A stretch of 48,720 bases of DNA, taken from positions 1-48,720 of the forward strand of contig JAISCD010000026.1 of assembly GCA_031265825.1 (NCBI GenBank), in the 5' to 3' direction. The stretch is from Treponema sp. (GTDB lineage Bacteria; Spirochaetota; Spirochaetia; Treponematales; Breznakiellaceae). This document shows, in pieces, positions 1 through 48,072 of the stretch; positions within the stretch are counted from its first letter, which is position 1; each line of letters begins with the position of its first letter. Below the pieces are notes generated by a model. The model was not told the DNA's origin. It saw only the letters and a list, made by a program, of their open reading frames with translations, and ran no database searches. The position numbers were made by a program, and so were the translations under genes.

Positions 1-1026
1 GGACGTTGTCCGACAGGCACACCCGGTTACCGGCTACGCGCGGCTGAAGCGGCGCAGGCTTCGGGTGTCAGACACCTTCCCACGGGACATTGTCCGACAG
101 GCTCGCCCGGCTACCGGCTACGCACGGAGGATGCGGCGCGGGCTTCTGGTGTCAGGCACCTTCTCAGGGGACATTGTCCGACAGGCTCGCCTATTTACCG
201 GCTACGCACGGGGGAAGCGGCGCGGGCTTCAGGTGTCTGACACCTTCCCACAGGACGTTGTCCGACAGGCATGCTTGTTTACCGGCTACGCACGGGGGAA
301 GCGGGGCGGGCTTCGGATGTCAGACACCTTCGCACGAGACATTGTCCGACCGGCACGCCCGGTTACCGGCTACGCACGGCTGAAGTGGCGTGGGCTTCAG
401 GTGTCAGACACCTTCCCACGAGACATTATCCGACAGGCTCGCCCGGCTACCGGCTTCGCACGGAAGAAGCGGCGCAGGCTTCAGGTGTCAGACACCTTCG
501 CACGGGACATTGTCCGACAGGCTCGCCCGGCTACCGGCTACGCACGGGGGAAGCGGCGCGGGCTTCAGGTGTCTGACACCTTCGCGCGAGACATTGTCCG
601 ACAGGCTCGCCTGTTTACCGGCTACGCACGGGAGAAGCGGGGCGGGCTTCGGATGTCAGACACCTTCGCACGGGACATTGTCCGTTTACCGGCTACGCAC
701 GGAGGAAGCGGCGCGGGCTTCAGGTGTCAGACATCTTCTCACGAGACATTGTCCGACAGGCTCGCCCGGCTACCGGCTACGCGCGGGGGAAGTGGCGCGG
801 GCTTCAGGTGTCAGACGCCTTCCCACGGGACATTGTCCGACAGGCTCGCCCGGTTACCGGCTACGCACGGAGGAAGCGGCGCGGGCTTCGGGTGTCAGAC
901 ATCTTCCCACGGGACATTGTCCGACAGGCTCGCCCGGTTACCGGCTACGCACGGAGGAAGCGGAGCGGGCTTCAGGTGTCAGACACCTTCTCACGGGACA
1001 TTATCCGACAGGCTCGCCCGGTTATT
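1..1026. repeat. 84-bp tandem array, about 12.3 units
   Basis: Units begin at GAC(A/G)TTGTCC at positions 2, 86, 170, 254, 338, 422, 506, 590, 674, 745, 829, 913 and 997. The step is 84 bp except 674 to 745, which is 71 bp because 13 bp are missing. Each unit carries four short dyads: TGTC-C-GACA, CCGG-CTA-CCGG, GAAGC..GCTTC, and the 15-bp AGGTGTC-A-GACACCT. Because 84 is divisible by three and stops are absent, all frames read open, but no frame has a convincing ribosome site and the 71-bp unit shifts the frame. I read it as a non-coding array. The left end lies outside the window. Confidence 0.93.
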
Positions 1027-1055
1027 AGTACGCCCCGTGTGTGAAGAGCGCCGCC

Positions 1056-1085
1056 TTGACAAGATCAACCGATTTTCAATATAGT
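1056..1085 (+). promoter_or_regulatory. sigma70-type promoter of the M16C peptidase gene
   Basis: TTGACA at 1056-1061, an 18-nt spacer, then TATAGT at 1080-1085. Only AAAACC separates the -10 from the ATG at 1092, so the expected transcription start falls on or next to the start codon. It lies just beyond the end of the 84-bp array. Confidence 0.65.
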
Positions 1086-1091
1086 AAAACC

Positions 1092-4037
1092 ATGACAACC
1101 AATTTTTCTATACTTGAATCTATTGATTTGAAAGAAATGAACGCCAAAGGCGTGTGGGCGCGGCATAAAAGCGGGCTCGAGGTGTTCCACGTACTGAACA
1201 ACGACGAGGAAAACCTTTTCGCGTTTGCGTTTTCCACCGCGCCGACCGATTCCACGGGCGTCCCGCACATCATAGAACACAGCGTGTTATGCGGCTCGGA
1301 GAAATACCCCTTACGGGATGCGTTTCTGGCGCTCGCCAACGGAAGCCTCCAGACCTTCTTGAATGCGTGGACTTTCCCGGACAAGACCGTTTACCCAGCC
1401 GCGTCCACCAATACGCGGGATTATTTCAACCTCATGTCTGTATATGCGGAGGCGGTCTTCAAACCTCTGCTCTCCGAGTGGACGTTTATGCAAGAAGGCT
1501 GGAGATTGGAGTTTAAGGACGCGAAACTTGCGCTCACCGGCGTTGTATACAACGAAATGAAAGGCGCGTATTCGTCAATGGACTCCTACGTTGAACAATG
1601 GGCGATGAAAGCTGTAACAAACGGCACGCAATATGTCCACGATTCAGGAGGGGACCCGGAGAATATACCGGATTTAACCTACGAGGCGTTCAAGGAATTC
1701 CACCGCAAACGGTATACGCCGGCAAACTGCCGCGTTTTTCTGGCCGGCAACATCCCTACGGAGACGCAACTCGATTTCTTGGACGAGATTCTCACAAAGA
1801 ACCCCGGTGAATTGCCTGCCGGAGAGCCTGCGCCGCCCATGCCGCTTGCGTTTCCCATGGAACAACCCCTTACCTTACACGTTCCCTGCCCCGCGAGTGC
1901 GGACGAGAAGCCAACCGCGGTGGTATCTTGGCTCTGCTCGGACGGGAGGGATGCGGAGGAGACGATGGCGCTCGTCTGTCTCGCTGAAATTCTGATGGGA
2001 CACGACGGTTCTCCGCTATCCAAACGGCTCGTGGAGTCCGGTTTAGGGGAGGATATGTCGCCGGCGAGCGGATTTGCGGATTATCTGCGCCAGACGCTCT
2101 TCGTTACCGGTCTGCGCGGCATAAAAACGCGGGCGGAAGACGTAGAGGCGCTTATTTTCGACGAATTACGCCGCCTTGTACGGGACGGCATTCGCCGGGA
2201 AGACATCGAGTCCACGCTTTTCCTCCTTGAATTCTCGCACAAGGAGTTGAAACGACCGGGCGGGCCTATCGCGCTCTCTTGGATGCAACGGGCGCTTAAC
2301 GGCTGGCTCCACAATACCAAGCCTTGGGAAACGATGCTCTTTGTGCCGCACTTCGAGAAGATCAAGGCGAACCTCGCCAGCAACCCGCGCTTCTTCGAGG
2401 AGAAGGTGGAACGCTACCTTTTGAATAACAATCACCGCGCCTTGCTCTGCGTTGAGCCGCAAAAGGACTTTCTTGAGAAGAAAGCTGAGGAACTCGCGCA
2501 AAAACTCTCCGCGAAGGAGGCGGTACTTTCACGCAAAGAGATATTAACCATCAACAAGAAGAACGAGGAGCTGGCAAAGATTCAGACCGAAGAGGAACCT
2601 GACGTTGTTCCGCACCTGACTCGCGCTGATCTTTCGGAGGATATAGCGAAAATCCCCCGCGCATTGTTCGACGCCGGGGGAATTCCCGCTGTAACCCACG
2701 ACATTTTTACCAACGGGGTTACGTACATTGCGATGGCGTTCCCGGCGGACACGCTTGCGCCTGAAGATTACCCTTGGCTATCGCTTTTTTCGCGGTCCAT
2801 TACGGGCGTAGGGCTACCCGGCATGGATTATGCGGAGGTATCCGGGCTTTTAGCGCGCACCGTGGGCGATTTTACCCCGCTTGCCCGAACTTCTTCCTTC
2901 GTTCCGGGCGCGGAAAAGACAATTACCACACCTTCTGGCGTATTTGAGCTACGCGGACGGGACTGGATGATGTTTTTATTGAAGACTTTGGACGAGCGCG
3001 TTGCAGATGGGCTGAGTTTAGCGAAGAAAATCATCACGCAGGCTGATTTTTCAGACCTGCGCCGCCTGAACGACATTGTTTTAGGCTTCAAAAACGATGC
3101 GTCCGCGTCTCTTGCGCCGGAAGGGCACTATTACGCGATGTGCCGCGCGAGCCGTTCTGCCTCAAAAGCCGCGGCTTTGGACGAAATCTGGAACGGTTTG
3201 ACCCAATTACGGTTCGTCAGCACGCTGTCGGAGATGGATACCGGGGAAATCAGCCGAAAACTGACGGACATTCGGGATAAAATCGCGGATTCTGGCATGA
3301 TTATCAACGTTACTTGTGCGGATGAAGCTCTGCCGTCCTGTTTACGCGCGGTAGAGCGGGAATATGCCTCGTTTGGACCACCGAAACCCGCGCTTTCCCG
3401 CGATCTCTCGCGGTTTTTTGCGCTTGCGGGGTGTGAAAACGGCTCGGAAACGGGCAAGACGGAGGTTTTCGCTTCGCCTTCCTTACAAATAGGCTTTGCA
3501 GGCAAGGCGCTTGCCTCTCCGCCCTACAATTCCCGTGCGGAAACCGCCGGGTTTCTTCTGGCGCATCATCTTTCCACCGGGGAACTTTGGGAAAAAATCC
3601 GCATGAACGCGGGCGCTTATGTGGTTTTTGCCAATATAAACGCTCTTGAACACCTTTTTACGCTCGGTTCCTATCGCGATCCCGCGCCTGCTCACTCTCT
3701 TTCCGTGTTTTTGGACGCGCTCAAGAAGGCGGGCAAGCGGAAAATTGACAAGATCGCGCTTGAAAAGGCGGTCATCGGCACGTATTCCAAACTCACGGTT
3801 CCAAAAGCCCCGACGCGGAAGGGTTTTCTTGACTTTGAACGTCTCCTTTACGGGGTAACGGACGAGCATAGGGAACGCAATCTGCGAGATTTGATCGATA
3901 TATCAGCGGACGACATCTGTTCTGTCGCAAAATCCCTTGTTCAAACGGAAGATTCCGCTTGTATTATTACCGGCTCCGCGGACGCGGAGAAAATTGCCGC
4001 CAAATTCGGCGTAAAAGTGCAAACCTTACCTATCTAG
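1092..4037 (+). CDS. M16C-family zinc metallopeptidase (PreP/insulinase-like)
   Basis: 981 aa, close to the usual 970-1000 aa of presequence-protease-like M16C peptidases. The inverted zinc motif HxxEH is visible as H59-I-I-E62-H63, followed by SVLCGSEKYPLRDAF and the family segment GVVYNEMKGAYS, whose Glu should be the third zinc ligand. Family knowledge: M16C enzymes are two-halved clamshells that degrade peptides, and no signal peptide is seen here, so a cytoplasmic role is likely. I chose ATG 1092 because it follows the -10 box directly; a GTG at 1041 in the same frame lies upstream of the promoter. The gene is monocistronic and ends before a terminator. GC-rich coding sequence contrasts with the AT-rich tail. 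Confidence 0.93.
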   Translation: MTTNFSILESIDLKEMNAKGVWARHKSGLEVFHVLNNDEENLFAFAFSTAPTDSTGVPHIIEHSVLCGSEKYPLRDAFLALANGSLQTFLNAWTFPDKTVYPAASTNTRDYFNLMSVYAEAVFKPLLSEWTFMQEGWRLEFKDAKLALTGVVYNEMKGAYSSMDSYVEQWAMKAVTNGTQYVHDSGGDPENIPDLTYEAFKEFHRKRYTPANCRVFLAGNIPTETQLDFLDEILTKNPGELPAGEPAPPMPLAFPMEQPLTLHVPCPASADEKPTAVVSWLCSDGRDAEETMALVCLAEILMGHDGSPLSKRLVESGLGEDMSPASGFADYLRQTLFVTGLRGIKTRAEDVEALIFDELRRLVRDGIRREDIESTLFLLEFSHKELKRPGGPIALSWMQRALNGWLHNTKPWETMLFVPHFEKIKANLASNPRFFEEKVERYLLNNNHRALLCVEPQKDFLEKKAEELAQKLSAKEAVLSRKEILTINKKNEELAKIQTEEEPDVVPHLTRADLSEDIAKIPRALFDAGGIPAVTHDIFTNGVTYIAMAFPADTLAPEDYPWLSLFSRSITGVGLPGMDYAEVSGLLARTVGDFTPLARTSSFVPGAEKTITTPSGVFELRGRDWMMFLLKTLDERVADGLSLAKKIITQADFSDLRRLNDIVLGFKNDASASLAPEGHYYAMCRASRSASKAAALDEIWNGLTQLRFVSTLSEMDTGEISRKLTDIRDKIADSGMIINVTCADEALPSCLRAVEREYASFGPPKPALSRDLSRFFALAGCENGSETGKTEVFASPSLQIGFAGKALASPPYNSRAETAGFLLAHHLSTGELWEKIRMNAGAYVVFANINALEHLFTLGSYRDPAPAHSLSVFLDALKKAGKRKIDKIALEKAVIGTYSKLTVPKAPTRKGFLDFERLLYGVTDEHRERNLRDLIDISADDICSVAKSLVQTEDSACIITGSADAEKIAAKFGVKVQTLPI

Positions 4038-4282: not shown

Positions 4283-4410
4283 CGGACACTCTCAGAGACC
4301 CGATGGACACTCTCAGGCAGGGGTTAGTATACTCTCAGAGACCCGACGGACACTCTCAGACAGGGATTAGTATACTCTCAGAGACCCGACGGACACTCTC
4401 AGACAGGGGT
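4283..4410. repeat. 43-bp tandem repeat, about 3 units
   Basis: ACTCTCAGAG recurs at 4288, 4331 and 4374, giving a 43-bp period. Each unit is made of two related halves that start GGACACTCTCAGA and differ afterwards (GACCCGA versus CAGGG), so the underlying period is about 21-22 bp. It reads as a short open frame but has no ribosome site. It sits between the M16C terminator and a second hairpin. The rest of 4038-4554 is AT-rich with nothing else recognised. Confidence 0.85.
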
Positions 4411-19442: not shown

Positions 19443-20561
19443 CTATGCTCTATTCCTCCTTCTTTCCTCGTTAATCGTCCATACTTTCTGGAGAATTAGT
19501 ATTACCGCCTGCCAATAGGCGAAAGGCACCTCGTCGCCTACTTCGGTTTCAGCGTAGAGAGCGCGGGCAAGCGGTTTGTTTTCCACAATCGGTACCCCGT
19601 TGTCAAGGGCAATGCGCCGAATTTGGAACGCCATCTCATCTCCGCCTTTTGCGGTTACTATGGGGGCTGTACCCTCGCCCGTATGGTACTCCAAGGCAAC
19701 TGCGAAATGCGTGGGATTCGTGATGACTACATCTGCCTTTGCGGTATTGATAGCCATATTTTTAGTCATAATCTGGTGCATACGCCGACGGAGACGCGCC
19801 CGTACCATCGGGTCCCCTTCTTCCCTTTTACGCTCTTCTTCAACTTCCTTACGGGACATTTTTAAAGACTCTCTATACTGCCACCGCTGGAACATATAAT
19901 CTGGTATAGCAAGCGCGCCCAACAGCAGAGCCGCCATAATGAGCATACGTGCCGCAAGCGCGGAAACAGCGCTAACTCCCTGCCACAGGCTTGCGGTCTG
20001 CAAATTCGTCAGAACCCCCCATTTCGAGCGTATCAGGAGATAAGCAGTCAAGCCTATGGCAAACATTTTAACAACAGATTTGAAAAAATTAAAGAGACCT
20101 TCCGATGAAAAAAGCGTTTTTTGAAAGTATTTCCCAAAATGTGGGATAACTTTTGAAAAATTCGGCGCAAGTGGCTTGGTTGTGAAAAGGAATCCTACCT
20201 GTACCATGTTTGAAATAATCGCCGCTACCATTGCGGTTAGGATGATGGGTAAACATAATTTCAGGAAATAACTCAAACATACGCCCGCAATAGAGCGATC
20301 TCTGGTAGGGTCTATAGATGTCGCGTGGGAAATGAAAAATTTTATCAACTCCGTACACGTCCGCAATAGGTACGGGGCTAGAAAAAGCAAAAGAAGCGCA
20401 GGCAGAAGCAGAACCAAGGCTCCAATGAACTCTTGACTCTTGGCAACTCGCCCTTCCTCTTCTCGCGCTTTGCGGATCTTATAATCAGACGGTTCTTCGG
20501 TACGCCCCTCATCTTCAGCCGCAAACCATTGAAAGTCCATGTTTACCAGCGGACGAGGCAT
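19443..20561 (-). CDS. flhB: FlhB, flagellar export switch protein
   Basis: 372 aa. It starts with the treponeme-like DFQWFAAEDEGRTEEPS and four membrane helices (LVLLLPALLLLFLAPYLL first). The autocleavage motif NPTH lies near residue 282 in VVITNPTHFAVALEY, followed by FlhB-C. FlhB switches export from rod/hook to filament substrates. I chose ATG 20561, preceded by AGGGA; a TTG at 20642 would add 27 residues encoded by an inverted-repeat segment and is less likely. It is the first gene of the leftward flagellar operon. Confidence 0.93.
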   Translation of the reverse strand: MPRPLVNMDFQWFAAEDEGRTEEPSDYKIRKAREEEGRVAKSQEFIGALVLLLPALLLLFLAPYLLRTCTELIKFFISHATSIDPTRDRSIAGVCLSYFLKLCLPIILTAMVAAIISNMVQVGFLFTTKPLAPNFSKVIPHFGKYFQKTLFSSEGLFNFFKSVVKMFAIGLTAYLLIRSKWGVLTNLQTASLWQGVSAVSALAARMLIMAALLLGALAIPDYMFQRWQYRESLKMSRKEVEEERKREEGDPMVRARLRRRMHQIMTKNMAINTAKADVVITNPTHFAVALEYHTGEGTAPIVTAKGGDEMAFQIRRIALDNGVPIVENKPLARALYAETEVGDEVPFAYWQAVILILQKVWTINEERRRNRA

Positions 20562-20892: not shown

Positions 20893-20922
20893 TTGACTCT
20901 GGAATAACATATATTGTATAGT
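20893..20922 (+). promoter_or_regulatory. sigma70-type promoter reading into the 21-bp array
   Basis: TTGACT (20893-20898), an 18-nt spacer and TATAGT (20917-20922). The expected start is near 20929, about 35 nt before the first array unit. No gene follows on this strand, so the product may be a repeat RNA. Confidence 0.55.
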
Positions 20923-20964
20923 AATCACATCTTTCTCAATAAAAACATCATATTTTGTGTCAGA

Positions 20965-21405
20965 AATGACTCATTTTGATCTAGAAATGACTCATTTTGA
21001 TCTAGAAATGACTCATTTTGATCTAGAAATGACTCATTTTGATCTAGAAATGACTCATTTTGATCTAGAAATGACCCATTTTGATCCAGAAATGACTCAT
21101 TTTGATCTAGAAATGACCCATTTTGATCTAGAAATGACTCATTTTGATCTAGAAATGACTCATTTTGATCTAGAAATGACTCATTTTGATCTAGAAATGA
21201 CTCATTTTGTGTCCAGAATAACTTATTCTGTCTCCCGAATGATCCATTCTGTCTAACGAATGACTCATTCTGCTTAACGAATGATCCATTCTGCTTAACG
21301 AATGACTCATTTTGTCTAACGAATGACTCATTCTGGCTAACGAATGATCTGTTCTGTCTCCCGAATACCCTATTTTGTCTAAAGAATGAAGCGTTCTATC
21401 TATTG
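20965..21405. repeat. 21-bp tandem array with a central dyad, 21 units
   Basis: Twelve near-identical units (AAATGACTCATTTTGATCTA plus G) are followed by nine degenerate units in exact 21-bp register. The centre of each unit is a dyad: AAATGA-C-TCATTT in the first block, GAATGA-C-TCATTC and GAATAA-C-TTATTC in the second, with changes on both sides that keep symmetry. A 7-aa periodic open frame exists but has no ribosome site. With its promoter it fills most of 20643-21515; the remaining bases show nothing recognised. Confidence 0.92.
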
Positions 21406-21515: not shown

Positions 21516-21746
21516 TCACTTTGTCTCGGATAACGCAACAGTGAGCATTTCCACCAATTTTTTGGCTTCTTCCCGCGAAAGCGTGACGCCTTTCCCCATT
21601 TTTTCATGGTATGGGTCCCAATCGCGGATGTCAAATTTCGGGTCGCGGTTATTCCACGATATTAAATTGACTTCTTTTTTCCACCCGCTTTTTTCTTCGG
21701 AAAGTATTCCATAATTCTTCACTATATCAAATGCTATCTCTGACAT
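21516..21746 (-). CDS. YdbC/PC4-like single-stranded nucleic-acid-binding protein
   Basis: 76 aa. The segment YGILSEEKSGWKKEVNLISW and DPKFDIRDWDPYHEKMGKG, with a closing helix LSREEAKKLVEML, matches the bacterial YdbC family (COG4443), which has the PC4 coactivator fold and binds single-stranded DNA. ATG 21746 has AAAAGGAG before it; a longer start at 21794 lacks one. It lies between the 21-bp array and the glycerophosphotransferase gene, both read leftward, with a 44-bp gap. Full length for the family. Confidence 0.85.
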   Translation of the reverse strand: MSEIAFDIVKNYGILSEEKSGWKKEVNLISWNNRDPKFDIRDWDPYHEKMGKGVTLSREEAKKLVEMLTVALSETK

Positions 21747-21790
21747 TATTTCTCCTTTTCTCTTAGTTTTGCCCCGCAAACCATAAGACG

Positions 21791-23065
21791 TCAATCAATA
21801 CTTGTTGCTGAATTCAGTAACGATTCAAGAAAATCAACGGTTCTCTTATCGGCTTGCCCACGGAACGCCCATGCCTCATCTTTCAGCAGTTGAATTTCCT
21901 GCCTGTCCTTGTTCAATGCCACATCAAGCGTGTGTTCTATATCCACAAAATCACTTTCTTCAAGCGAACTGCCCAATACCCGTATGGCGCGAAAAGTCCA
22001 TGCCTCATCTTCAATATCCGACAGATCGTAAGGACGCTTGTCGAATTCAAAGCGAGGGTAAATCACCGGACGGTTAAACAGAAAAGCGAAATCAAATATA
22101 ATGCCAGAAAAGTCTGAAATCAACAGGTCTGTACGGGAAAGAACGTCCAGATTTTCCGCGTCAAAATTCCATTCTACATTTTTATAAGGTTTCAAGGCTA
22201 TCATTAGTTTATCAACGACGTCCTTTTCTGTAATCATGGTCTGTGGATGCGGGCGTATGACGATGTAAAACCGCGACTTTGCCAGCGGCTCAAGAAGACG
22301 TAGCCCGTAGCGTCTCAGTATAGCGTTTTCCCCCCATGACGGCGCGACAAGCACGCATCGTGAAAGCGGAGAGTCCCGTCCGCTGTTTGCTAGATACGCC
22401 TGAAAGACATCAAGATACGTACAACCCACGACTTCCAGCGTCTTTTCCTTCAAACCGCGCAACCTTTCCAAGGCGCGTATGTCCTTTTTCTGATAATCGC
22501 CGGTTAAAAGCACACTATCATAGTAATCTATGCCGAAAAGCCGATATGTAGTAGCGTCTGTGAGTGTGTGGAGTATATGACAGTAGTGTCGAACACCCGG
22601 CGAGCGCTTCAATTGGAACACGTCAAGCCCCGGCGTCGTCATAAGACACACTTCAGCCTCAAGGAAGTTGAGGAATCGGTAAGCTTCGTTGCCGCTGCCT
22701 ATAAACTGTGTATGCACAGATGGAGACTCAAAGGCGAGTCCGGGGTCGTCTTTTCCAGCGCTATAATACATACATACGATTCCACGTGCGCTTAATTCTT
22801 CCATAACAGGTTTGAATACATTCCAGTACTGTTTACCTTCGGAGAAAATAACGAGTCGCTGACGTCCTGTAATAGGCATCGCGGCAAGCGCTTTTTGGGG
22901 AGAGAATCCCGCTTTTATCCGCAACAGCAAGTTCTTCGCAAAGAAAAACGCCGTTACCGCCAACCCGGTAAGCAGAGAAAAAAGCATACTGCCTGTTCCG
23001 GGATCTATATAGGCAAAAACAGGAACAGAAAAAGTAAGGAAGAACAAGAGATATACTATTTTCAT
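21791..23065 (-). CDS. CDP-glycerol glycerophosphotransferase family protein
   Basis: 424 aa from ATG 23065. A signal-like hydrophobic start (MKIVYLLFFLTFSVPVFAYI) and a second membrane helix (FSLLTGLAVTAFFFAKNLLL) precede a cytoplasmic domain with the TagB/TagF-type motifs: APSWGENAIL near 255, VIRPHPQT near 285, LLISDFSGIIFDFAF near 330. Such enzymes transfer polyol phosphates to surface glycans; the substrate here is unknown. There is no good ribosome site. It follows rpoC by about 80 bp, so it may be read through from the rpo operon. Confidence 0.85.
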   Translation of the reverse strand: MKIVYLLFFLTFSVPVFAYIDPGTGSMLFSLLTGLAVTAFFFAKNLLLRIKAGFSPQKALAAMPITGRQRLVIFSEGKQYWNVFKPVMEELSARGIVCMYYSAGKDDPGLAFESPSVHTQFIGSGNEAYRFLNFLEAEVCLMTTPGLDVFQLKRSPGVRHYCHILHTLTDATTYRLFGIDYYDSVLLTGDYQKKDIRALERLRGLKEKTLEVVGCTYLDVFQAYLANSGRDSPLSRCVLVAPSWGENAILRRYGLRLLEPLAKSRFYIVIRPHPQTMITEKDVVDKLMIALKPYKNVEWNFDAENLDVLSRTDLLISDFSGIIFDFAFLFNRPVIYPRFEFDKRPYDLSDIEDEAWTFRAIRVLGSSLEESDFVDIEHTLDVALNKDRQEIQLLKDEAWAFRGQADKRTVDFLESLLNSATSID

Positions 23066-38016: not shown

Positions 38017-38289
38017 TTATTCAATATCCATTCCCACCGTTGTAAATGACGGACTTCTCAAGGCTTTGTCTGTTTGTGACGCAAATAGTTCCTCAACTAC
38101 CTCTCTAGCCTTCTTCCATACGTCGCGTTTGTGGACAGACTTTCGTCCAATGCGCCTGAGCAAATCTGAAACGTCAAACACTCCACCGGCGACTGTCTCC
38201 TCCCCTTCCCGGACGCATCTTTCGACATTGTTCTCAACCGCAACGGCAAATATGAAATCAACGAAGTCTGCCGCGTATTGAGTCCGGAC
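38017..38289 (-). pseudogene. 3' remnant of an unrecognised gene running into the array
   Basis: Leftward frame with stop TAA at 38017-38019 encodes about 90 normal-looking residues: QYAADFVDFIFAVAVENNVE, then RCVREGEETVAGGVFDVSDL, then LRRIGRKSVHKRDVWKKARE, VVEELFASQTDKALRSPSFT. Upstream the frame passes into the 21-bp array (units read VPSRTIG) until a TAG near 38460, with no start codon. So the 5' part of the gene was lost to or replaced by the array. Antisense frames here look like shadows. Family not recognised. Confidence 0.6.
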
Positions 38290-38295
38290 GGCATG

Positions 38296-39335
38296 TTCTC
38301 TGCTTGTTCTACTTGGAACTCCGATAATTCTGTTCCGAACTCCGATTGTTCTACTCGGAACTTCATTTGTTCTGCTTGGAACTCCGATTGTTCTACTCAG
38401 AACTTCGTTTGTTCTGTTTGGACTCCGCCTGTTCTGCTCGGAACTCCACTTGTTCTATTCAGAACTCCGCTTGTTCTGCTCGGAACTCCGATTGTTCTAT
38501 TCGGAACTCCGATTGTTCTGTTCGGAACCCCGCTTGTTCTGCTCAGAACTTCGATTGTTCCGCTTGGAACTCCGATTATTCTATTCAGAACCCCGACTGT
38601 TCTACTCGGAACTCCGACTGTTCTACTCGGAACTCCGATTGTTCTATTCGGAACTCCGATTGTTCTATTCGGAACTCCGATTGTTCTATTCGGAACTCCG
38701 ATTAACTAGTTCGGAACTCCGATTAACTAGTTCGGAACTAGATTTATCTAGCTCTGAACTAGATTTAACTAGCTCGGAACCAGATTTATCTAGCTCGGAA
38801 CTCCGATTAACTAGCTCAGAACCAGATTTATCTAGCTCGGAACTCCGATTAACTAGCTCAGAACCAGATTTATCTAGCTCGGAACTCCGATTAAGTAGTT
38901 CAGAACTAGATTTATCTAGCTCGACACTCCGATTAAGTAGTTCAGAACTAGATTTAACTAGCTCGACACTCCGATTAACTAGCTCGGAACCAGATTTAAG
39001 TAGTTCAGAACTAGATTTAACTAGCTCAGAACTCCGATTAAGTAGCCCAGAACTAGATTTAACTAGCTCAGAACCAGATTTAAGTAGCTCGGAACTCCGA
39101 TTAACTAGTTCTGAACTAGATTTATCTAGCTCAGAACTCCGATTAACTAGTTCTGAACTAGATTTATCTAGCCCGGAACTCCGATTAACTAGCCCAGAAC
39201 CAGATTTAACTAGTGTGGAACTAGATTTATCTAGCTCCACACTCCGATTAACTAGCTCGGAACTAGATTTAACTAGCTCCGAACTCCGATTAACTAGCTC
39301 AGAACTCCGATTAACTAGTGCGGAAGTGGATTTAG
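38296..39335. repeat. 21-bp tandem array, about 49 units, two sequence classes
   Basis: Class A (about 38296-38698): units of the type GAACTCCGATTGTTCTATTC plus G, with GAAC / GTTC dyads; one unit near 38421 is 20 bp. Class B (about 38699-39335): left halves ACTCCGATT, ACTAGATTT or ACCAGATTT are combined freely with right halves AACTAGTTC, ATCTAGCTC or AAGTAGTTC. Dyads such as CTAGAT-TT-ATCTAG and CTAGTT-CGG-AACTAG span the joints. Long open frames on both strands are heptad artefacts without ribosome sites. From 39336 to about 39480 there is only an imperfect hairpin CCGAGCC..GGTTCGG (39391-39414). Confidence 0.92.
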
Positions 39336-45150: not shown

Positions 45151-45394
45151 CCCTTACTCTTTGCTTACATTGAATAGGTTCCGCTTGTTTACAAGCGTAA
45201 CCGTCAAGACGGGGTCAGCGGCGCTCCCTTTCGGACAACACCCCGTGTGAAGTATTTAAACACCCGAAGGGTGTTGACAATTCTCATTTTTTGAGTAATT
45301 ATATTCTCATGCAGAAAAAACGTGTTAGCGAAACAAGAACCCCGCAGACTGCGGCAAGCCGCTTGCGGAACCGCTCGCCAGATGAGCGCATGGG

Positions 45395-45406: not shown

Positions 45407-45524
45407 GTAGAATTCTTTCAGTACTATACAAAGACAGACAAACCCGCAAACGCGCGGGCGTTCTCATTCCAGAAAAGGCGCGGGGCGCTTTTCGTCCAGA
45501 CGCATTGTGCGGGGGATTCTGGAT

Positions 45525-45755
45525 TTAAATTCATGGAGTCAGACTTAGAATTCATGAATTCAGTTTTAGAATTCATGAAATAAGTTTTTAAATTCATGAA
45601 TTCAGCTTTAGAATTCATGAAATAAATTTTAGAATTCATGAATTCAACTTTAGAATTCATGAAATAAGCTTTTAAATTCATGAATTCAGTTTTAGAATTC
45701 ATGAAATAAATTTTAGAATTCATGAATTCAACTTTAGAATTCATGAAATAAATTT
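45525..45755. repeat. 21-bp tandem array, 11 units, alternating in pairs
   Basis: Every unit contains ATTCATG(A/G)A. Odd and even units alternate: one type has the perfect 14-bp palindrome GAATTCATGAATTC, the other GAATTCATGAAATAA, so the higher-order period is 42 bp. The last unit ends 2 nt before the GAGGAGG ribosome site of the next gene, so the array forms its leader. Confidence 0.93.
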
Positions 45756-45770
45756 TGAGGAGGAATGAAA

Positions 45771-46412
45771 ATGAGAAGTTTCATGTCATTTGGAGAAAAG
45801 AATTTTTCGGATTTCGCCGAAGTTTTTGCGGAAACGACGGAGGATCTCGCCACGGAGCTGGGCATACCGGCGGACGCGGCGACGAATGTAAAAGCGCTAT
45901 TCACCGCGTATAAGGCGGCGTATACGGCGTGCGAGGCGCCCAACGCGGGTCCCATAGACCGTGAAGACCGCAAGGAGAAGCGGACGGCGCTAGAAGCCGC
46001 GATACGCAGGATCAAGAACGCCTACATCGACGGAGACCCCAAGGGGGTGGTGACCAACGAGGTGCGGATGAAGTTCGGACTGCCGCCCAAAGACGTGATC
46101 CACACGCCTGTGGAGCCGCCGAAAGAAATACCGCCGTTTACGCTGGAATCAGGCGGGTACTTGCAGGTAACCGTGACGCACCCCGCGAGGCCAGCGAGTT
46201 ACAACGGCGCGGTGTTGTTCTATAGGGTAAGCGATGAACCGATCACGAGCCACGAGGAGCTGACATCGTCGAAGTTGCTCACGCGCGTGAAGGAGACGTT
46301 GGTGTTCAAGGATACGGAGCGGCTGAAGACGCTGTCCGCGGCGCTGTGCTGGGAGAACGAGAAGGGACAACTTGGTCCCGTGTCGCCGATACAGTCGCTA
46401 GTCATTGTCTAG
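45771..46412 (+). CDS. Treponema-type hypothetical protein
   Basis: 213 aa. The N-terminal half is helical (FSDFAEVFAETTEDLATELG, VKALFTAYKAAYTACEAPNA) with the recurring segment NAGPIDREDRKEKRTALEAA followed by RRIKNAYIDGDP. The C-terminal half is a beta-sandwich-like region (YLQVTVTHPARPASYNGAVL, LCWENEKGQLGPVSPIQSLV). I recall many paralogues of this layout in termite-gut Treponema and some Bacteroidetes, of unknown function. ATG 45771 is 7 nt after GAGGAGG, better than the ATG at 45765. No signal peptide. A lipoprotein gene follows. Confidence 0.75.
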   Translation: MRSFMSFGEKNFSDFAEVFAETTEDLATELGIPADAATNVKALFTAYKAAYTACEAPNAGPIDREDRKEKRTALEAAIRRIKNAYIDGDPKGVVTNEVRMKFGLPPKDVIHTPVEPPKEIPPFTLESGGYLQVTVTHPARPASYNGAVLFYRVSDEPITSHEELTSSKLLTRVKETLVFKDTERLKTLSAALCWENEKGQLGPVSPIQSLVIV

Positions 46413-47914: not shown

Positions 47915-48072
47915 GCAAAGGAAGAAAAAGCCGTCCGGGGTGCAAGCCGGGCGGCGCTTTCCTAATGAGTAATGAGCAGGTAGCAGGTAGTAGGTAGTAG
48001 GTAGCAGGTAGCAGGTAGCAAAGGAAGAAGAAGCCGTCCGGGGTGCAAGCCGGGCGGCGCTTTCCTAATGAG
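47915..48072. repeat. Duplicated hairpin segment with heptanucleotide repeats between
   Basis: Two copies (47915-47968 and 48017-48072) of AGCCGTCCGGGGTGCAAGCC plus GGGCGGCGCTTTCC, each a terminator-like hairpin (AAGCCG..CGGCGCTTT). Between them GTAGCAG/GTAGTAG repeats six times (47980-48021). The first copy may end the lipoprotein transcript. Confidence 0.8.

Follow-up and report, generated by a model that had tools for sequence, protein, structure and literature searches.

The window analysed here (i.e. the whole 48,720-nt stretch of DNA) corresponds to contig C61 in a draft genome of 1.8 Mb that is 57% complete. A tandem array at 20961-21401 lies upstream of flhB (19443-20540, minus strand; PF01312) and of the flhB promoter region, and is faced from its other side by a small gene for a PC4/p15 single-strand-binding coactivator domain (21516-21794, minus strand; PF02229). 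The PC4-domain gene also adjoins flhB in array-free relatives. The original prediction that no gene follows the array holds for the plus strand, the next gene being the minus-strand PC4-domain gene.

The array consists of 21 units in exact 21-bp register, as had been predicted, and was detected by TRF at 20962-21389 with a period of 21 bp and 97% matches in the first block. Each unit combines an 11-bp palindrome (AATGASTCATT) with a 10-bp spacer. Block 1 (20961-21212) contains 12 near-identical 21-bp units with the core AATGACTCATT and the 10-bp spacer TTGATCTAGA. Block 2 (21213-21401) contains nine diverged units with AATGAnTCATT-like cores and spacers that are mostly CTGTCTAACG/CTGCTTAACG. 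The 21-bp register is kept across the transition, the spacer of block 2 resembles that of an array at G000:C18, and a degenerate flanking unit (20940-20960) precedes the array. These head-to-tail copies of a unit within the 10-100 bp range, absent at this place from same-genus relatives and hence lineage-specific, are as found in bacterial minisatellites; the conserved dyad core, fixed spacing and free spacer sequence are as found in protein-binding arrays. A CRISPR array was rejected for this locus, as its 10-bp spacers are homogeneous inside each block, and a plasmid iteron or origin was rejected on the basis of the neighbours (i.e. flhB and the PC4-domain gene, with no replication initiator).

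Symmetry of the units and transcription of the array

The dyad of the target array outperformed column permutations of the same array (p ~0.01-0.05). In the 13 distinct target units, standard pairs filled 92% of cells in the 6-pair dyad, as compared to 87% in shuffles and 17-60% when the dyad position was slid as a control, confirming the prediction that the units are centred on a dyad. A further prediction, that both arms change together, was not upheld, although the example changes cited for it are present. Six both-side cells were observed in the target array against 2.1 expected, but these are confined to two of the six pairs, being changes of an outer A-T to G-C and of a G-C to A-T. Most were inherited through the split between blocks 1 and 2 and are shared by descent in block 2, amounting to about two inherited double changes, and the innermost dyad pair is broken in 6 of the 13 variants. 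Over all dyad arrays, 34 paired changes were found versus 25 expected, beside 296 one-sided changes, indicating that joint change of the arms is not a general rule.

Transcription through the array could produce a repetitive hairpin RNA with a regulatory, decoy or terminator-like role. The five outer dyad pairs of the target array are never broken on the plus strand (G-C, A-U or G-U in 13/13 variants) and the folding z-score is -8.5. However, the opposite strand folds equally well (z about -8 for both strands), which is expected simply from tandem dyads, and the target stems have just five A-T-rich pairs. One-sided changes across 31 dyad arrays comprised 81 G-U and 76 A-C, and strand skew was absent when assessed array by array. 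The TTGACT-18-TATAGT match at 20893-20922 (plus strand; 10/12), originally read as a promoter driving the array, is at chance level, with three promoter-like sites in the region versus 4.5 in shuffles. Additionally, a search against Rfam produced no match and the arrays exhibit no orientation bias relative to genes. A hairpin RNA is thus very unlikely as a general explanation. For the target array itself, the retention of the outer pairs on the plus strand with tolerance of G-U is suggestive, and a local RNA role is conceivable.

Genome-wide arrays of fixed unit length

Tandem arrays were counted at a threshold of 65% identity over 63 bases in 265 kb of the target genome, a sample of stretches not picked for the repeat. 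A period of 21 was exhibited by 29 arrays and a period of 23 by four, with no more than one array at each of the other periods between 10 and 41. The density without the window was 11.6 arrays per 100 kb, extrapolating to ~210 in the assembly, and arrays occupied ~3.5% of the sampled sequence. The target array is one locus of this genome-wide class of non-coding, fixed-length 21-bp tandem arrays, whose units fall into many unrelated sequence families. As one of ~200 arrays in the genome, and absent from relatives, it does not fit a unique operator or partition site. To our knowledge, bacterial non-coding tandem repeats have no preferred unit length, and a fixed length of 21 bp whatever the sequence is unusual for bacterial DNA. 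The arrays are intergenic with no orientation preference (<< 12, >> 11, <> 9 and >< 6, counts in which 23-bp arrays and contig-end fragments are included). Similarity between units is higher for neighbours than for distant pairs (0.82 at a distance of 1-2 versus 0.71 at 10 or more), indicating that arrays grow by local duplication. Coding repeats (21 bp being seven codons) were rejected, as open frames extend little past most arrays and several arrays have none. A unit made up of three heptamers was also rejected, as few arrays are 7-periodic and the other 62 show a weak 7-bp signal (z ~2).

Other arrays of this type lie in the window. An array of the GGAACTCCGATT family at 38304-39325 has a 42-bp higher order, one of the AATTCATGAATT family at 45524-45756 has a 42/84-bp higher order and ends at the ribosome-binding site of a gene at 45765, and a short 21/43-bp array at 4284-4410 belongs to a CTCTCAGAGACCCGA family that is also present in L020 and L027. 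Arrays of the AATTCATGAATT type occur right before the ribosome-binding site of a gene with several similar genomic copies (window 45503-45776; L019 1-312; L027 7226-7482; L025 2819-2936). A methyltransferase remnant (38188-38304; PF08241, 22 bits), preceded by a stop, runs into the array at 38304-39325, and the gene seems to be broken at this array. A G+C-rich 84-bp tandem array (window 1-1024; 84 being 4 x 21) lies just before a large peptidase-like gene (1041-4037). A dispersed element of ~95 bp (window 45180-45275), frequently paired in tandem and frequently close to 21-bp arrays, matches the genome at 71 or more places (40 of 289 first-look candidates being scored).

Assemblers of metagenomes that use k = 21 might have generated such arrays as an artefact. 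A termite-gut assembly pipeline starts at k = 21 (PMC9137090), and the closed single-contig genomes G038, G039 and G049 contained no such array in the 460 kb sampled. Against this source, substitutions distinguish the units of an array, higher-order structures of 42/63/84 bp and arrays of 23 bp exist, and the same cores and register are seen in more than one genome. Additionally, draft genomes of the same genus (i.e. G002, G005 and G011) were free of 21-bp arrays over samples of 50-60 kb. An assembly artefact is considered highly improbable.

Arrays in related genomes

The relatives are Treponema MAGs with JAIR/JAIS accessions, presumably from termite guts, of a family that appears to be the Breznakiellaceae (PMC13067680). 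In 832 kb sampled from the family's other genomes, a period of 21 bp was found in 12 arrays and one of 23 bp in seven, the remaining periods being mainly multiples of three. Array-rich relatives were G020 and G037, together with G068 and G014 in small samples. The target array, for which a search of other assemblies had been proposed, was absent from the flhB locus of all 29 relatives examined, including G009-G011 of the same genus. At its place upstream of flhB, G008 (L118 1296-1402) and G014 (L128 1-118) contain unrelated 23-bp hairpin-like arrays, which represent repeated independent acquisition. Arrays have a high turnover and their positions are not conserved.

Spread of the repeats by REP-associated (RAYT/Y1) transposases, or by another mobile element, was weighed against the distribution of these genes. 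Genes for Y1 transposases abound in these genomes, with 97 in G037, and further dispersed repeats exist. However, array-rich G020 has one Y1 match whereas array-poor G011 and G002 have 28 and 38, respectively. At the examined loci, one Y1 match had an array within 1.5 kb, this match being a fragment at a contig end, and the arrays are head-to-tail tandems rather than dispersed single palindromes. Both RAYT/Y1 and reverse transcriptases were rejected as the source of the arrays, as they fail to track array density, and a mobile-element origin is given very little weight. As an RNA is also unlikely, an explanation at the level of DNA is left. The 97 RAYT-like Y1 transposase-domain genes of G037 (~180 aa) occur in one draft genome.

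Conservation of the core and divergence of the spacer

Pairs of AATGASTCATT cores separated by any gap of 0-30 bp were sought in 120 genomes. Matches occurred solely in G000, G020, G037 and G068 (i.e. four genomes of four genera), every one of them with a gap of exactly 10 bp (i.e. the 21-bp register) and with differing spacers, and a reversed-core control in the same search gave 0 matches. With up to three mismatches and a 10-bp gap, the target genome gave 55 core pairs, spread over at least 10 contigs, and six other genomes gave none. Across 16 loci, spacers exhibited a mean identity of 38% versus 33% when shuffled and cores were nearly identical, a likeness that is partly by construction for the core-searched loci. 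Loci obtained by blast with the whole unit matched at 9-11 of 11 core positions and 3-8 of 10 spacer positions, with one weaker match at 7 of 11 and 7 of 10, respectively. A core enrichment of 24/100 arrays was set aside as inflated, several loci having been included for their core; some of the stretches examined were likewise chosen for a match to the core.

Dyads are over-represented among the arrays (22/72 at p<0.05). Dyad columns were off consensus in 14% of cases versus 23% for other columns, a difference seen in 18 of 22 dyad arrays (Wilcoxon p = 0.0009); the corresponding contrast in arrays without a dyad was not significant (p = 0.14). Two other array families tested gave whole-genome counts of 11 and 50, with all listed matches in the 21-bp register, and both are private to the target genome. 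Isolated cores outside arrays were at chance (1 seen, 0.5 expected), indicating that the cores do not form an ordinary regulon.

Interpretation of the fixed unit length

A neutral or selfish satellite without function, whose unit length (21 or 23 bp) is set by a replication or recombination process in these lineages, is the main rival, a possible though somewhat doubtful explanation. Short stretches, above all those bearing palindromes, would be amplified, and quasi-palindrome templating would make the symmetric changes. Such a process is consistent with the high turnover and unconserved positions, with the many unrelated families that are all of 21 or 23 bp, with the lack of orientation preference and with a locus-specific homogenisation that decays over distance. 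The paired changes over all arrays, which are not clearly in excess, and the array that follows a methyltransferase remnant also agree with it. However, it fails to predict either the slower change of dyad columns or an identical core with a nearly unrelated spacer across genera, as neutral descent would predict similar spacers. Furthermore, we know of no process that fixes such a unit length.

As a fixed core with a free spacer weighs against a neutral satellite, we tentatively favour a bacterial satellite of DNA-level dyad sites whose core is held by a putative sequence-specific dimeric protein. The AATGASTCATT core would be recognised as double-stranded DNA by the dimers, all of which would sit on one DNA face with sites two helical turns apart. 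The array might then provide a platform for cooperative binding, of a nucleoid- or decoy-like kind instead of being a conventional operator. Its units would multiply by slippage or unequal exchange, and protein binding would keep the register and the core. The phased protein-binding array of the original prediction is in this respect compatible with the fixed core, free spacer, exact 10-bp gap and conserved dyad columns, in a form other than a unique site. Protein binding is weakened by the 23-bp arrays, the second commonest length, in which sites do not stay on the same face of the DNA, by the private families, by the lack of positional conservation among relatives and by the failure of this analysis to find a candidate protein that binds the core. 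As other cores are present in most families, and both of those tested are private to the genome, binding would need many different proteins.

Dozens of unrelated arrays, nearly all of 21 bp and some of 23 bp, imply a physical ruler, for which the candidates are a length of two helical turns, the footprint of a protein or a step in amplification. It is conceivable, though unlikely, that some termite-gut spirochaetes possess dedicated machinery (i.e. a family of proteins binding or copying DNA 21 or 23 bp at a time) to build and maintain sequence-independent fixed-length arrays chromosome-wide. Identification of the ruler would be of broad interest. The arrays imply a fast-evolving, satellite-like fraction of the chromosome in uncultured termite symbionts, and could be used as strain markers.

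Comparison with known repeats

Literature searches returned no account of 21-bp arrays of fixed length from termite treponemes, and nothing similar to the array was found in phage records. A single IMG/VR match was rejected as looking like chance (i.e. one pair, off the 21-bp register, with no surrounding array). A match to Borreliella burgdorferi linear plasmids was also rejected as a chance match to a 19-bp A-T-rich repeat.

The arrays resemble bacterial minisatellites (VNTR) in being non-coding, head-to-tail, locally homogenised and lineage-specific. They differ in the ~200 extrapolated loci per genome, in having one fixed length (21 bp, less often 23 bp) whatever the sequence, in the recurrence of dyads and in a core with free spacer that is common to several genera. 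Plasmid iterons are Rep-binding repeats of ~20-22 bp, about two helical turns apart and on one DNA face. The arrays share this spacing and facing, but are chromosomal, number roughly two hundred and, at the target locus, have no rep gene beside them. Intergenic palindromes in many copies, with Y1 transposases present, recall BIME/REP elements and RAYT; however, the arrays are head-to-tail in register and are linked neither to Y1 genes nor to how many of these a genome has.

Direct repeats of the TAACTGA heptamer occur genome-wide and in intergenic regions of Beggiatoaceae, Cyanobacteria and Bacteroidetes, are proposed to be regulator binding sites and, in the type genome, lie mostly just upstream of start codons (PMC4679880). 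The 21-bp arrays are likewise genome-wide, intergenic and of fixed length, but have many sequences in place of one fixed heptamer and no fixed place relative to genes. The target genome also contains a separate class of TAACTGC-like heptamers reminiscent of the Beggiatoaceae repeats, and heptamer tandem repeats (i.e. TAACTGC and AGCAGGT) were observed at L012 366-485 and at window 47975-48020.
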